64,000 bases of DNA from Desertivirga xinjiangensis (GTDB lineage Bacteria > Bacteroidota > Bacteroidia > Sphingobacteriales > Sphingobacteriaceae): positions 682,001 to 746,000 of the forward strand of contig NZ_JAFMZP010000001.1 of the NCBI RefSeq assembly GCF_024436435.1, given 5' to 3'. Shown here one piece after another: positions 28,024 to 57,925 of this stretch. Both the position numbers and the translations under genes were made by a program. The notes below the pieces were generated by a model. That model did not search any database. It had not been told where the DNA came from and saw only the letters and a list, made by a program, of their open reading frames with translations. The first letter of the stretch is position 1; every line of letters starts with the position of its first letter.

Positions 28024-28130
28024 TCGTCATCCTGAACTTGTTTCAGGATCTCTTGTCTAAAAAGTGCTTCATACATTATTCAAGAGTCGCTGGATCGTCC
28101 TCCTAAGCTTGATTCAGGATGGGCCTGACG
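28024..28130 (+). repeat. Dispersed cloverleaf repeat, complete left half and decayed right half
   Basis: It contains GTCATCCTGAACTTG, the hairpin TTTCAGGA, the central CTCTTG...CAAGAG stem and a changed right arm ending in TGACG. It lies just upstream of the LpxR-like gene, between its start codon and a gene remnant. Confidence 0.7.
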
Positions 28131-51757: not shown

Positions 51758-52849
51758 TTACAAATAACTGTTCTGCCTCAAATAATGATCAGCAATGGTC
51801 AATGCAGCCATGGCTTCAACTATCGCTACTGCCCTTGGTACAACACATGGATCGTGCCTGCCTTTACCTTTAATTTCTGCAGCATTACCTGTCTTATCAA
51901 CAGTATCCTGGTTATGCATGATGGTGGCAACAGGCTTGAACGCTACCTTAAACGTTATATCCATTCCATTTGAAATACCACCCTGTATCCCTCCGGAGAA
52001 GTTGCTTAAAGTACTAACACCTTTTCCTTCAGATGCCGGCACAAAAACATCATTATGCTGTGTACCCCGCATTTCCGAACCGGCAAAACCAGAGCCATAC
52101 TCAAAACCGTGTACGGCATTGATGCTAAGCATAGCCTTGCCCAGATCAGCATGAAGTTTATCAAACACCGGTTCACCCAGGCCAACCGGACAGTTGCGGA
52201 TCACACACGAAACCTTCCCGCCAACAGTATCCCCGGCTTTCCGAACCGAATCAATGAAGTCGATCATTTCATTCGCCGTCGCCGGATCCGCACAGCGCGC
52301 AATATTACTCTCCCGAACTTCCAGCAATTCACCTAATGCGCTGGTATCGATATTAGGAGCATCAATAGTTCCAACAGAAGAAACATGAGCAAAGATCTCA
52401 ACGCCTTTCTGCTTAAGGAAAAGCTTCGCTACAGCACCCGCAGCCACCCGAGCCGCAGTTTCACGAGCGGAAGAGCGGCCTCCGCCACGATGATCCCGGA
52501 TGCCGTATTTCGACTGGTAGGTATAATCAGCATGAGAAGGACGGAAAATATCTTTGTTATGATCGTAATCTTTCGACTTCTGATCTTCGTTAGGGATCAG
52601 CAAAGCGATCGGCGTACCGGTACTTCTGCCTTCGAAAACCCCCGACAAGATCTGAGCGCTATCACTCTCCTTACGCTGGGTAGTGATCTTCGACTGACCT
52701 GGCTTACGTTTATCCAGCTCGCTCTGAATAAATTCCAGATCAAGATCAACATTAGGAGGGCAACCATCAATGATCACACCGATAGCCACACCGTGTGATT
52801 CTCCGAAAGTTGTAATGCGGAACAATTGTCCGAATGAGTTACCTGCCAT
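51758..52849 (-). CDS. aroC: Chorismate synthase
   Basis: A 363-residue FMN-dependent enzyme for the last step of the shikimate pathway. The N-terminus [20 protein letters not shown] is the AroC signature 1, with [30 protein letters not shown] (signature 2) and [15 protein letters not shown] and [19 protein letters not shown] later. Length is typical. It is the last gene of the aromatic group, 80 bp downstream of aroA; the gap has no terminator. Confidence 0.97.
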
Positions 52850-52929: not shown

Positions 52930-54192
52930 TCAAAAAACGAAGCCTGCTTTCCTAAGATCTTCCCAGAATGAAGGGTAGGATTTTCCTACAACTTCAGGTT
53001 CTTCAATTTCGAGCTGATTGATCTTCAAAGCCAGAGGGGCAAAAGCCATCGCCATTCTGTGGTCTTCGTAAGTTTTGATAGTGATCTTATCAGGAAAATG
53101 AAGCCCGGAACAATCCAGATGGTATAGCTCATTTTCTTCGATCAGTTTCACCCCGATCTTAGCCAGCTCATTTTGCAAAGCCGCTACACGGTCGGTTTCC
53201 TTGATCTTCAAAGTCTCCAGGCCTGTAAACGTAGCATTGTGACCTAATGCTGCACTTACAACGATCACGGTCTGGGCCAGATCAGGACAATCTTTCAGAT
53301 CAAAGAAGTCACCATTGATTTCTGAAGCTGATTTCACCAGGACCAATCCCTCATCCGTAAATGCGGTGGTTATGCCGAAGCTTGTCATGATGTTGCTGAT
53401 GCGGCTGTCGCCCTGCAAACTGTTTTGCTTTAAGAAGGGAAGGTTTATCTCACTTTTATCAGACAATGCAGCAATAGCATACCAGTACGAAGCAGCACTC
53501 CAGTCTGGTTCTACCGTAATCACTGAAGGTTGAAACGCCTGCGCCGGTATCGAGATCACAGATCCATCCCAGGTGTGATTAATGCCTGCTTCAGCCAGCA
53601 TAGCCAGGGTCATTTGAACATACGGACTGGAAGTAAGCTCACCTTCGATCGTAAGTTCCAATCCCTGAGGCAGGGAAGGGGCAACCAACAGCAGGGCAGT
53701 GATAAACTGCGAACTGATGTTTCCTTTAATGCTTACCTTGTTGGTCTTTTGCTCAAAAGAAGGCTTGAACTTTAACGGAGGGAAACCCTCTTTTTCAACA
53801 TATTCAATTTCTGCACCCAATTGCTTCACCGCATCTACCAGGATCCCTATCGGACGTTGCTTCATCCTTTCCGTTCCCGTAAGAATTACCTCCTGCCCGG
53901 TTGTGGCAAAATAAGCAGTAAGAAAACGCATGGCTGTTCCGGCAGGACCGATATTGACAGTAGGTACTTCAGAAACCGAAGCAACCGCAGCCCCATTTAC
54001 CGGTCTTAGCCCTTCCAGTATCCCGTTAAGGGTAACCGTATCATCAGCAGAGGAAAGGTTTCTAACCTCAACCTTTCCTTTGCTGGAGGCATTTAAGATC
54101 AAAGCCCTGTTGCTTTCACTTTTCGAACCAGTAAGCTGTATGGTGCAAGAAGTGTCTTTAATGGGCTTTGAAAGGATTAATGCTTCCGCCAT
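52930..54192 (-). CDS. aroA: 3-phosphoshikimate 1-carboxyvinyltransferase (EPSP synthase)
   Basis: A 420-residue two-domain enzyme adding PEP to shikimate 3-phosphate. LTGSKSESNRALILNA is the N-terminal substrate loop, NIGPAGTAMRFLTAYFA the conserved LxNAGTAxR-like site (here GPAGTAMR), and LKIKETDRVAALQNEL and EDHRMAMAFAPLAL are C-terminal signatures. I choose ATG 54192 (MAEALILSKP), 1 bp after the stop of the preceding gene; the ATG at 54204 would overlap it by 11 bp. Confidence 0.95.
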   Translation of the reverse strand: MAEALILSKPIKDTSCTIQLTGSKSESNRALILNASSKGKVEVRNLSSADDTVTLNGILEGLRPVNGAAVASVSEVPTVNIGPAGTAMRFLTAYFATTGQEVILTGTERMKQRPIGILVDAVKQLGAEIEYVEKEGFPPLKFKPSFEQKTNKVSIKGNISSQFITALLLVAPSLPQGLELTIEGELTSSPYVQMTLAMLAEAGINHTWDGSVISIPAQAFQPSVITVEPDWSAASYWYAIAALSDKSEINLPFLKQNSLQGDSRISNIMTSFGITTAFTDEGLVLVKSASEINGDFFDLKDCPDLAQTVIVVSAALGHNATFTGLETLKIKETDRVAALQNELAKIGVKLIEENELYHLDCSGLHFPDKITIKTYEDHRMAMAFAPLALKINQLEIEEPEVVGKSYPSFWEDLRKAGFVF

Positions 54193-54193
54193 C

Positions 54194-55297
54194 TTACTGA
54201 ACAACTTGTTTAGCGTTCATGATAGCAGTTTGTTTCTTGATCGATTCAGCGTGAATCAGCTCTAAGAACTTAGTAGTGAACTCTTCATCTAAGCTTAATG
54301 CTTTTGCAAAGCTGGCACGTTTCTGAATGATCTCGTCCCAACGGTTAAGCTGAAGGATAGTAATATCGTTATCCCTTTTGTACTCACCAATCTTCTCCAC
54401 GATCTTCAATCTTTCAGAAAGTTTCTGGATCAATTGATCGTCAATTTTATCGATCTGCTTACGAAGTTCAGCCAGTTTATCAGACACCGCAGGGTTAGTA
54501 GCCTCCGGGTGACGAACAGTAAGGTTGTCGATCAGGTCGGATAAAGCAGCAGGAGTAACCTGTTGTTTCGCATCAGTCCACGCTACAGATGGGTCAATAT
54601 GCGACTCGATCATTAATCCGTCGATCTCTAAGTCTAATGCTTTTTGAGAAATGTAAGGAATTAATTCGCGGTTTCCGCAGATGTGACTTGGATCGCAGAT
54701 CACGGGTAAGTGAGGCAATAAAGTTTTAAGCTGAATAGTAAGTTCCCACATTGGTTCGTTACGGAAAGCAGACTTTTCGTAAGATGAGAAACCACGTGAT
54801 ATAGCAGCCAGTTTAGTGATACCAGCACCATTGAAACGCTCTAATGCACCAACCCATAGTTGAAGATCAGGGTTTACAGGGTTTTTAACCATTACAGGGA
54901 TATCAACACCTTTAAGAGCGTCAGCAATTTCCTGAACGGTAAAAGGGTTAACTGTTGAACGTGCTCCAACCCAAAGGATATCCACACCAGCTTTTAAAGC
55001 TTCTTCAACATGTTTTGCGTTAGCAACCTCTACAGTTGTAGGTAAGCCGGTTTCAGTTTTCGCACGTTTTAACCATTCCAATCCGATGCTTCCGATACCT
55101 TCAAATTCTCCCGGACGGGTACGTGGTTTCCAGATACCTGCACGTAAAACAGATACTTTGCCTGTTTTAGCAAGAAGGTGTGCAGTAGACAATAACTGGT
55201 CTTCTGTTTCAGCGCTGCAAGGACCAGCAATTACTAAAGGCTGATGAGATGCTTTTAACCACGCGCTTAATGGCTCTATATTCAAGTTCAGTTTCAT
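54194..55297 (-). CDS. Bifunctional DAHP synthase / chorismate mutase
   Basis: A 367-residue fusion. Residues about 1-250 are a class I DAHP synthase of the short (KDO8P-synthase-like) group, with PLVIAGPCSAETEDQ, LRAGIWKPRTRPGEFEGIG and ICDPSHICGNRELIPY; it joins PEP and erythrose 4-phosphate. Residues about 270-360 are an AroQ-type chorismate mutase (KLAELRKQIDKIDDQLIQKLSERLKIVEKIGEYKRDN). The mutase part can confer feedback inhibition, and it makes prephenate for PheA. aroA begins directly after. A good promoter lies just upstream. Confidence 0.93.
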   Translation of the reverse strand: MKLNLNIEPLSAWLKASHQPLVIAGPCSAETEDQLLSTAHLLAKTGKVSVLRAGIWKPRTRPGEFEGIGSIGLEWLKRAKTETGLPTTVEVANAKHVEEALKAGVDILWVGARSTVNPFTVQEIADALKGVDIPVMVKNPVNPDLQLWVGALERFNGAGITKLAAISRGFSSYEKSAFRNEPMWELTIQLKTLLPHLPVICDPSHICGNRELIPYISQKALDLEIDGLMIESHIDPSVAWTDAKQQVTPAALSDLIDNLTVRHPEATNPAVSDKLAELRKQIDKIDDQLIQKLSERLKIVEKIGEYKRDNDITILQLNRWDEIIQKRASFAKALSLDEEFTTKFLELIHAESIKKQTAIMNAKQVVQ

Positions 55298-55320
55298 ACT
55301 ATTTTATTCTATTTAATGTG

Positions 55321-55347
55321 CAAAATTAATGTTCTTATATATTTCAA
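55321..55347 (-). promoter_or_regulatory. Promoter of the DAHP synthase-aroA-aroC unit
   Basis: On the minus strand TTG (55345-55347), 16 bp, then TAATTTTG (55321-55328), ending 23 nt before the ATG at 55297. It means the group after pheA need not depend on the pheA attenuator. Confidence 0.5.
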
Positions 55348-55436
55348 TGAAGCTTTCCAAATCCGGTTTTTCGTCACTCTGACTTTGTTTCTTCGTCATC
55401 CTGAACTCCGGTTCGTCATCCCCAACTCGCTTTCTT

Positions 55437-55530
55437 CGTCATCCTGAACTTGTTTCAGGACCTCTTGAGTTAAACATAGTTCAAGAGATGCCGAAATGTC
55501 GTCCTGAACTTGATTCAGGACGGCATGACG
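55437..55530 (+). repeat. Cloverleaf repeat with an extra hairpin nested in the right arm
   Basis: Normal left half and central stem, but the right hairpin is opened by an extra segment CGTCCTGAACTTGATTCAGG-ACG, a second left-type hairpin, before GGCATGACG. Left fragments precede it (55392-55410). It lies between pheA and the DAHP synthase promoter. Confidence 0.85.
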
Positions 55531-55578
55531 GTCGTGTTACCGCTTAACCTAACGACCGTGTTACAACTTACAACTTCC

Positions 55579-56409
55579 TTACACAGTATCATTCTTCAGA
55601 TACTCTCCCAGTATCGTAAAATTCACCGTGTGCCTAAGTACTTTCCGGATCGCCTCTTCATAATTCTTGTGATTATCCCACTCAATATCTACATAGAAAT
55701 TATACTGGTTCCGTTTCCCTAACACCGGCATTGACTGGATTTTACTCAGGTTCACCTCATGTTCTGCAAACACCGTAAGCACTTTAGAAAGTGAACCCAC
55801 CTCGTCGCTTACCTGGAAAGAAAGAGAAGCCTTATTGGCATTTTCGATCGCCAGGTCTTTATTATCGCTGAGTATCAGGAAACGCGTATAATTCTTTTTA
55901 TTCGTTTCAATACGGCGCTCCATAATCTCCAGTCCGTATAGTTGGGCCGCAAGCTTATTCGCAATTGCAGCAGTATCAGTTAATTGCCCGTCGCGAATCT
56001 TTTTAGCACAAGCCGCAGTATCCGTGCTCTCCACTACATTCAAATGTGGATACTCGTTAAAAAAGTCATCGCACTGGCGGATAGCGATCGGGTGTGATTC
56101 CACCTTTTTGATCTGGTCAAACCTAACACCTGGCAAAGCAAGCAGGTTCAGCTGAATATGCAGGTAAACCTCACCAATAATGCAAAACTGGTAGTCGCGC
56201 AGTAGCGTATAGTTAGGAAGCAGGCTGCCGGCAATGGAATTTTCAATAGCCATCACTACGAAGTCAGCTTTCTTATTTTTAAGCACTTCGCAAGTTTCTT
56301 TAAAGGAGTTACATTCTGTCGTCTCGATGTCCACTCCAAAAAACTTCAAGGCAGCTTCTTCGTGAAACGAAGCCTTAATTCCCTGTATTGCTACTCTTTT
56401 CTTCTCCAT
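55579..56409 (-). CDS. pheA: Prephenate dehydratase with ACT domain
   Basis: A 276-residue enzyme making phenylpyruvate from prephenate. The catalytic part (about 1-185) begins RVAIQGIKASFHEEAAL and has the TRF motif in KKNYTRFLILSDN; the C-terminal ACT domain (about 195-270, SLSFQVSDEVGSLSKVLTVFAEHEVNLSKIQSMPV) binds phenylalanine for feedback inhibition. No chorismate mutase domain; that activity lies in the DAHP synthase fusion. It is directly preceded by a leader peptide and terminator arranged as an attenuator. Confidence 0.95.
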   Translation of the reverse strand: MEKKRVAIQGIKASFHEEAALKFFGVDIETTECNSFKETCEVLKNKKADFVVMAIENSIAGSLLPNYTLLRDYQFCIIGEVYLHIQLNLLALPGVRFDQIKKVESHPIAIRQCDDFFNEYPHLNVVESTDTAACAKKIRDGQLTDTAAIANKLAAQLYGLEIMERRIETNKKNYTRFLILSDNKDLAIENANKASLSFQVSDEVGSLSKVLTVFAEHEVNLSKIQSMPVLGKRNQYNFYVDIEWDNHKNYEEAIRKVLRHTVNFTILGEYLKNDTV

Positions 56410-56413
56410 TGGT

Positions 56414-56448
56414 TAAAAAAAAAGTCCCGGCTTTTGGGCCGGGACTTT
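56414..56448 (-). terminator. Attenuator terminator in front of pheA
   Basis: Stem AAAGTCCCGGC / GCCGGGACTTT (56421-56431 with 56438-56448 on the plus strand) around a 6-nt loop, followed on the minus strand by nine T (56415-56423 region). It lies only 5 nt upstream of the pheA start, so it cannot belong to an upstream gene's 3' end; aroB ends on the other side of a 320-bp spacer. Confidence 0.9.
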
Positions 56449-56479
56449 ATATATGAGTTCTTTTTGTCAAAACATATTC

Positions 56480-56487
56480 GTCCCGGC
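56480..56487 (-). promoter_or_regulatory. Antiterminator strand after the leader-peptide stop codon
   Basis: On the minus strand GCCGGGAC, two nt after the leader's TAA, is identical to the 3' arm of the pheA terminator and so complementary to its 5' arm (GTCCCGGC). ATATG just after it can also pair with CATAT before the 5' arm. A ribosome at the leader's stop codon would cover this strand. Confidence 0.75.
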
Positions 56488-56489
56488 TC

Positions 56490-56540
56490 TTACTGATAGT
56501 AGTAAAAGTAACCGAACCAATATGTAGTGTTTTTTGTCAT
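56490..56540 (-). CDS. pheA leader peptide, aromatic-rich (attenuation)
   Basis: A 16-codon frame on the minus strand reads MTKNTTYWFGYFYYYQ, then TAA. Eight of 16 residues are aromatic (five Tyr, two Phe, one Trp), clustered in eight of the last ten codons. Purines (AAAAAGAA) lie before the ATG, and a -7 element is 15 nt upstream. The stop is followed within 2 nt by an antiterminator strand, and a terminator stands 41 nt further on, before pheA. This is the arrangement of a ribosome-stalling amino-acid attenuator: charged aromatic tRNAs let the ribosome reach the stop and the terminator forms; shortage stalls it and lets pheA be read. Confidence 0.85.
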   Translation of the reverse strand: MTKNTTYWFGYFYYYQ

Positions 56541-56555
56541 TTCTTTTTGCTGTTC

Positions 56556-56563
56556 CAAAAGTA
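56556..56563 (-). promoter_or_regulatory. -7 element of the pheA leader
   Basis: TACTTTTG on the minus strand, exact TAnnTTTG, ending 15 nt before the leader ATG. No clear TTG 17-21 bp upstream. Upstream DNA to 56640 is A/T-rich. Confidence 0.5.
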
Positions 56564-56705
56564 AGATTCTGAAACTGAATTTTAAAATTAATTTTTAAAA
56601 TAATTTTCGAGCCGGGTTCTTTACATGTTGGTTTCGCAAGTTGATGTACAGAACTAAAGCACACGGCGCGCGTGCGCTAGCATTCGCTAACATAGCCCCG
56701 CTGCT

Positions 56706-56719
56706 GGCGCACGCGTGCC
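56706..56719. repeat. Copy of the GGCGCACGCGTGCC motif
   Basis: GGCGCACGCGTGCC with CTGCT before it, matching TGCTAGCGCACGCGTGCC at 401-418. It is preceded at 56664-56680 by a related CGCGCGTGCGCTAGC stretch. It lies in the spacer 3' of aroB. Confidence 0.45.
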
Positions 56720-56786
56720 AGTTAACTAGTTTTCCAGACCACTCATTGCTGACGAACCCATCTTGTCCGTCGAGTTCCCCATCCTG

Positions 56787-56860: not shown

Positions 56861-57925
56861 CTAAGCAACAAGCTCCCGGTAAAAATCCAAACTCTCCACA
56901 ATCTTATCCTCCTCCAGGTAATTGTTGTAATCACATTCCCCCAATCGCTTCAACAAAGCAAAGCCGATATTCCCCGACGTGTTCTTCTTATCATTCTTCA
57001 TAAACTCAATAAGCGCAGGATACATCGAAGGTGATAACTTATAATCCGGAAAGATGCCCCTAACAATCTCAACCAGCTCATTCAGCCCCTCTTCACTAAG
57101 CGAATTATATTTATGCGATAAATAAGCCTCGCAGATCATTCCAATAGCGATAGCCTCGCCATGCAGTAAGGGATTCTTGTCATTCTTCAGCGAATAGCTC
57201 TCCACAGCATGGCCAATGGTATGACCGAAATTCAGCGTTTTCCGTAATCCTTTTTCAAACGGATCAGTGGTTACCACATGGTTTTTTATCTCAATTGAAT
57301 GATAAATGATCTCAGCAGGAATATTCTCCGGACTAACGCCCTTTAATTTATCGAGGTAATCTTTATCCGCTATAAATCCATGTTTTACGATCTCCGCAAA
57401 ACCTGAAACCAGTTGCCTCTGATCAAGCGTTTGCAAAAACTCCGTAGAAATGAAAACCGCTTTTGGCTGTGCAAACGTTCCAACAATGTTTTTAACGCTA
57501 CCCAGATCGATACCCGTTTTCCCGCCTACCGATGCATCCACCTGCGATAATAACGTGGTTGGGATCTGAACAAAGTCAATCCCCCGCTTAAAAGTAGAAG
57601 CAGCAAAGCCCCCAAGGTCGGTGACCACACCTCCACCAAGGTTTATCATCAAACTATTGCGGTCGGCCCCAAAATCCAGCAAGTTCTGCCATACCCCGAT
57701 ACAGTAGTCAATGTTCTTATTTTCCTCACCCGGATCAACCTCAATGATGTCATAAGTGTCAAGTTCAGGCAAGTACTTCTTAATTACCGGCAAACAGTGT
57801 TCAGAAGTGTTAATATCAGTAAGGAAAAAGATCTTCGTATAGTTTGACTCAGCCAATAGAGTTTTAAGGCCGCCAAGATCAGTATCGAAAAATACAGAAT
57901 AGCCGTTGCTTTGTATAGGAAGCAT
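56861..57925 (-). CDS. aroB: 3-dehydroquinate synthase
   Basis: A 354-residue NAD- and metal-dependent enzyme making 3-dehydroquinate from DAHP. The NAD motif is in LMINLGGGVVTDLGGFAASTFKRGIDFVQIPTTLLSQVDASVGGKTGIDLG, the hallmark of AroB, and the metal histidines are in KHGFIAD and LNFGHTIGHAVE, with LLHGEAIAIGM after. It begins 2 bp after the S4 gene's stop. It is on the same strand as pheA, but the pheA leader with its own -7 element lies between them. Confidence 0.96.
   Translation of the reverse strand: MLPIQSNGYSVFFDTDLGGLKTLLAESNYTKIFFLTDINTSEHCLPVIKKYLPELDTYDIIEVDPGEENKNIDYCIGVWQNLLDFGADRNSLMINLGGGVVTDLGGFAASTFKRGIDFVQIPTTLLSQVDASVGGKTGIDLGSVKNIVGTFAQPKAVFISTEFLQTLDQRQLVSGFAEIVKHGFIADKDYLDKLKGVSPENIPAEIIYHSIEIKNHVVTTDPFEKGLRKTLNFGHTIGHAVESYSLKNDKNPLLHGEAIAIGMICEAYLSHKYNSLSEEGLNELVEIVRGIFPDYKLSPSMYPALIEFMKNDKKNTSGNIGFALLKRLGECDYNNYLEEDKIVESLDFYRELVA

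Follow-up and report, generated by a model that had tools for sequence, protein, structure and literature searches.

A putative aromatic amino acid attenuator in front of the pheA operon of Desertivirga xinjiangensis and its relatives in Bacteroidia

The pheA gene of Desertivirga xinjiangensis, the sole gene in its genome with a match to PF00800, is preceded by a short leader that has the layout of a transcription attenuator. Both lie on the minus strand of the analysed window, a 64,000-nucleotide stretch of contig NZ_JAFMZP010000001.1 (positions 682,001 to 746,000), and are followed on that strand by other genes of aromatic biosynthesis (Table 1). Read along the minus strand from 56563 to 56409, the leader consists of TACTTTTG, 15 A-rich bases with no Shine-Dalgarno sequence ahead of the leader ATG, the ATG...TAA frame (MTKNTTYWFGYFYYYQ), two bases, GCCGGGAC, a 34-base spacer, GTCCCGGC-CCAAAA-GCCGGGAC, nine T and AACCA, the five bases that separate the terminator from the pheA ATG at 56409. 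This region occurs once in the 5.5-Mb genome. The parts list of the original prediction is reproduced base for base, except for its terminator of '11 bp followed by nine T', in which three bases are counted twice: beyond an 8-bp G+C-rich core, the stem has three A-U pairs formed with three bases of the nine-T tract.

Table 1. Parts of the pheA leader and genes of the operon, in window coordinates
Feature	Coordinates	Strand	Evidence
-7 promoter element of Bacteroidota type, TACTTTTG (TAnnTTTG)	56556..56563	-	exact match
Leader frame MTKNTTYWFGYFYYYQ, 16 codons, 8/16 aromatic, stop TAA	56490..56540	-	sequence; aromatic-rich in 57/57 family genomes
Strand 1, ACATATTGGTTCGG, Tyr-Trp-Phe-Gly codons; partner is strand 2 and the bases after it	56512..56525	-	folding, covariation
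Inner helix of 1:2, 5' side, CTTTTACT, aromatic codons	56501..56508	-	alignment fold, pair counts
Inner helix of 1:2, 3' side, AGTAAGAG	56487..56494	-	alignment fold, pair counts
Strand 2, antiterminator 5' arm, GCCGGGAC, two nt past leader stop	56480..56487	-	sequence, permutation tests
Strand 3, GTCCCGGC; alternative partners strand 2 and strand 4	56438..56445	-	sequence, folding
Intrinsic terminator hairpin (3:4), arms 56448-56438 and 56431-56421	56421..56448	-	fold; covariation in 7/11 pairs
Nine-T tract of terminator	56415..56423	-	sequence
pheA, prephenate dehydratase with ACT domain, controlled gene	55579..56409	-	PF00800 (4.2e-55), PF01842
DAHP synthase-chorismate mutase fusion, common aromatic pathway; next gene on strand after pheA	54194..55297	-	PF00793, PF01817
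aroA, EPSP synthase	52930..54204	-	domain match
aroC, chorismate synthase	51758..52849	-	domain match

Three competing helices in the leader RNA

The leader has a predicted folding energy of -40.9 kcal/mol against -21.6 +/- 3.5 kcal/mol for dinucleotide shuffles (z = -5.6). Two mutually exclusive folds had been predicted, and both the antiterminator (2:3) and the terminator (3:4) are present; a third helix (1:2) had been missed, in which ACATATTGGTTCGG pairs with GCCGGG..AATATGT around an inner hairpin of CTTTTACT and AGTAAGAG. The resulting set of 1:2, 2:3 and 3:4 is, by analogy, the classical logic of the trp and phe attenuators.

All three pairings are supported by comparison with relatives. 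By counts that, like the permutation statistics below, ignore the relatedness of the sequences, 96.1% of the cells of 1:2 and 3:4 taken together are paired among 57 sequences from the family Sphingobacteriaceae, and 11 pairs have changed on both sides. None of 500 shuffles is as good on any of five measures, and pairing falls to 38-50% when the partners are slid out of register. At the base of helix 1:2, 20 genomes have an A-U pair and 18 a G-C pair, and the terminator helix covaries as well (Table 1). The 1:2 fold is also more stable than when the same peptides are encoded by synonymous codons (mean z = -1.53), with p < 0.05 in 26 of the 57 genomes where about three would be expected.

For 2:3, 92.3% of the cells are paired in the family. 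Because the antiterminator arm is nearly invariant there, a column-wise test is uninformative and a cross-species permutation was used instead. Across 73 species, strand 2 matches the terminator arm of its own species better than those of others (1391 vs. 1134 +/- 22), and the same holds for Flavobacteriaceae alone (263.5 vs. 186.6 +/- 13.2; 0/5000 permutations) and for the other families separately (435.5 vs. 366.9 +/- 12.9; 0/5000 permutations). Examples of strand 2 and its own terminator arm are CGAGGCTT with AAGCCTCG, CGAGACCT with AGGTCTCG and GTCAGGATT with AATCCTGAT.

Distribution and codon content across Bacteroidota

Relatives were searched with a detector that requires at least six F/Y/W in twelve residues and a hairpin with a T run and an energy of -8 kcal/mol or lower, the stop lying 5-140 nt ahead; only one of 1200 shuffled upstream regions passes, that is, has an aromatic frame and a terminator at the right distance. 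The original prediction had proposed checking relatives for a conserved aromatic frame with alternative pairing, and leader and terminator are found in all 57 Sphingobacteriaceae genomes that have pheA (an even family sample, window included). The detector fires in 28 of the 34 other genomes of the class that an even phylum-wide sample contains. Inspection of the six misses by eye brings this to 30, as leader and terminator are visible in two of them (L098 and L103), whose T run is too short for the detector, whereas in the four real misses (L094, L106, L110 and L113) pheA lies directly behind another gene. Of 26 genomes sampled from the remaining classes of the phylum, 2 pass (L135 and L140). 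The family, class and phylum samples share a few genomes. Among the nearest public genomes by protein, the device is present in all Sphingobacteriaceae and in many Bacteroidales, Marinilabiliales and Cytophagales, and most Prolixibacteraceae are without it. Where pheA is the first gene of its transcription unit, then, almost every Bacteroidia genome sampled has the device.

The promoter motif TAnnTTTG lies within 75 nt upstream of 36 of the 73 leaders, as against 7% of shuffles, most commonly 26 nt before the leader start; together with an upstream TTG it is seen in 30 of the 73 and in 0.8% of shuffles. The -33 element of the window's own promoter is weak.

A mixture of aromatic codons had been regarded as unusual for a pheA leader. 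It is instead the rule throughout the class: all 73 leaders contain Phe, 72 contain Tyr and 38 contain Trp. That Tyr and Trp should be sensed alongside Phe is reasonable, because the operon carries a DAHP synthase/chorismate mutase gene. That gene stands behind pheA in all Sphingobacteriaceae relatives inspected and, in most of the relatives inspected that have enough flanking sequence, follows pheA either directly or after an aminotransferase gene and usually tyrA.

Proposed mechanism and alternative explanations

The leader thus combines an aromatic-rich frame, a terminator before the first gene, an exclusive 2:3 pairing and a 1:2 helix that overlaps the regulatory codons. Classical ribosome-mediated attenuation, as originally predicted, is by far the best reading of this arrangement, and the frame and the pairing are kept throughout the family; sequence and modelled folding indicate that the leader is very probably a ribosome-mediated transcription attenuator for the pheA operon. 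From the same evidence we infer that the promoter is used, that the leader is translated and that ribosomes stalling at its aromatic codons cause antitermination, with read-through on starvation. Transcription would start about 10 nt ahead of the leader ATG, and a ribosome would translate the leader frame behind RNA polymerase. A shortage of Tyr-, Trp- or Phe-tRNA would stall it on the aromatic codons, where it would open helix 1:2; strand 2, now free, would pair with strand 3 ahead of the synthesis of strand 4, and with the terminator blocked pheA and, putatively, the genes behind it would be transcribed. With all three tRNAs plentiful, a ribosome at the stop codon would cover strand 2, helix 3:4 would form and transcription would terminate just before pheA.

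Folding with strand 4 absent and the bases under a ribosome of assumed footprint size blocked gives a probability of 2:3 of about 1.0 for ribosomes up to Tyr14, 0.75 at Tyr15, 0.35 at Gln16 and 0.00 at the stop, which agrees with the earlier proposal that a ribosome there covers the antiterminator strand. In most relatives the leader frame runs through strand 2 (..SRD stop), so that strand 2 is occupied by a ribosome finishing the peptide; in the window's genus, two bases separate the stop from strand 2, which a ribosome at the stop is nevertheless predicted to cover.

Several points weigh against attenuation of this kind. The size of the ribosome footprint was assumed, and in constrained folding the full leader at equilibrium always favours the terminator, so that the switch must be kinetic, as in known attenuators. 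Before strand 4 is made, ribosome-free 2:3 is predicted to be slightly more stable than 1:2, and column counts give no covariation for 2:3 within the 57 family genomes, its arm being too conserved.

The other explanations that we considered account for less of the evidence. The upstream gene on this strand is aroB, which ends at 56861, and the hairpin might be its ordinary terminator and the short frame a product of chance. However, aroB has its own hairpin and T-rich tail behind its stop (GGAGAGTCGGAGACTCTCTTTTATTT, 56848-56823), and an arrangement of frame and terminator that recurs in all 57 family genomes but in only one of 1200 shuffled regions makes this explanation extremely unlikely. 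A conserved structured leader ahead of an amino-acid operon could also be bound by a protein or a metabolite, as a riboswitch, a T-box or the target of an RNA-binding regulator, with the short frame being secondary. Neither the window nor the pheA leaders of 20 sampled genomes yield an Rfam match at or above the gathering score, and the codons and the three helices account for the conserved bases, with no aptamer-like core apparent; control by such binding appears exceedingly improbable.

A TnaC-like arrest peptide, whose specific nascent sequence would sense the free aromatic amino acid inside the ribosome, draws some support from the leader peptide, which is fairly conserved within Sphingobacteriaceae (AY[WYF]FGYFYF). 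Yet the aromatic residues interchange freely, and the sequence and length of the leader vary widely between families. The conserved Gly codon sits in strand 1, where RNA pairing may account for its conservation, synonymous codon choice is under selection for structure, and a stop or frame end on strand 2 is the geometry that fits control by starvation. We consider an arrest peptide very unlikely.

Returning to attenuation, Shine-Dalgarno sequences are largely absent in Bacteroidota. We find it fairly likely, as a joint proposition, that the attenuator is class-wide and probably ancestral in Bacteroidia, that it integrates the supply of Phe, Tyr and, in many species, Trp, and that ribosomes starting without a Shine-Dalgarno sequence trail the polymerase closely enough to control termination. 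The pheA attenuator would also offer a ready-made reporter for the tightness of transcription-translation coupling in Bacteroidota.

Precedents, further leaders and neighbouring sequences

The kind of switch is already known, though there had been few records of it in Bacteroidota. The leader-peptide attenuators of trp, his and ilv operons in Proteobacteria have the same mechanism and three-helix logic but belong to another lineage, and in Bacteroidia the last part of the leader frame often includes strand 2. Enterobacterial pheL-pheA (Rfam RF01859, Phe_leader) likewise has a short aromatic frame, the 1:2, 2:3 and 3:4 folds and a terminator before pheA. Its regulatory residues are Phe only, whereas the window has mixed Phe/Tyr/Trp codons, a Bacteroidota promoter and an operon with DAHP synthase/chorismate mutase; the window leader scores 32.0 bits (E = 0.015) against a gathering score of 55 for RF01859, with no sequence kinship. 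Bacteroid-trp (RF01692) is found before trp genes and has a Trp leader frame; it differs from the pheA leader in both operon and sequence. Its model matches nowhere in the genome, the genome's own trpE leader included, while the control, Bacteroides ihuae, does match. Work by Vitreschak in 2004 reportedly mentioned Bacteroidetes/Chlorobi in passing.

The original prediction described such leaders as little known in Bacteroidota. Little is indeed recorded, although there are precedents: Bacteroid-trp had been listed among candidate cis-regulatory RNAs in Bacteroidetes (Weinberg et al. 2010, PMC2864571), and the transcriptome of Flavobacterium psychrophilum includes structured 5' elements before pheA and hisG, with leader-peptide attenuation suggested for amino-acid operons (PMC9723704, 2021). 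The latter report, as far as its main text goes, is confined to Flavobacteriaceae and gives no sequence detail, whereas here the device is traced across the class with covariation. Small open reading frames reminiscent of leader peptides have been described in B. thetaiotaomicron (PMC7366714), and a 2010 survey, before extending leader-peptide attenuation to Firmicutes, counted it in Proteobacteria and Actinobacteria alone (PMC2965389). Searches of the literature for Bacteroidota leader peptides or coupling turned up little beyond these precedents, and we found no description of a class-wide pheA family with three helices and mixed codons in the freely readable literature. The pheA leaders, which no Rfam model fits in the window or the 20 sampled genomes, could enter Rfam as a family from alignments of the present kind. 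Sub-threshold Rfam matches, among them GcvB on the plus strand (35.7 bits; gathering score 42), were rejected as driven by the terminator palindrome. The one Rfam hit among the sampled genomes, Flavo-1 RNA (RF01705, 78.6 bits; L095, 436-513), is not part of the attenuator, being situated about 240 bases upstream of the pheA leader in a Flavobacteriaceae genome.

Further leaders of the D. xinjiangensis genome were looked for at single loci. The trpE gene is preceded by MLKVIHTKNWWWQAIACAG, a Trp-Trp-Trp leader, and a terminator that ends just ahead of the gene (L084, 1306-1432, plus strand); judged by its sequence, this is a classical trp attenuator layout that the Rfam Bacteroid-trp model misses. 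An Ile/Val/Leu-rich frame, MNPRLRRRLSITVTSLVPVINVIVVLLIASHSKVS, and a terminator stand before ilvD (L085, minus strand). The frame before hisG, MTSVFTHHMHFHHRH, has 6 His among 15 residues (L083, minus strand) and no clear intrinsic terminator follows it at that locus; the control of hisG may differ in mechanism from that of pheA. Taken together, the near-universal presence of the device in the sampled Bacteroidia with pheA at the head of its transcription unit, and its recurrence in this genome before trpE and ilvD and, as a leader frame alone, before hisG, point to it as a main way of controlling amino-acid operons in a large bacterial class. No such leader was seen ahead of the two homoserine dehydrogenase genes (hom/thrA) at their loci. 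A SAM riboswitch (RF00162, 69.6 bits) lies upstream of a homoserine dehydrogenase gene (L087, 2664-2780, minus strand).

Repeats occur on both sides of pheA. The 281-base gap between it and the DAHP synthase gene (55298-55578) holds copies of CGTCATCCTGA, of which there are 11 on the plus strand of the window (e.g. at 28025, 51026, 55394, 55437 and 58277). The gap also contains TAATTTTG (55321-55328), which matches the -7 element exactly and may mark a second promoter within the operon. A GC-rich palindromic element, CACGCGTGC, lies at 56650-56720 and again at 409, 7104 and 39230; similar sequences stand upstream of hisG and hom on other contigs, and by its sequence the element appears to be a dispersed REP-like intergenic repeat.
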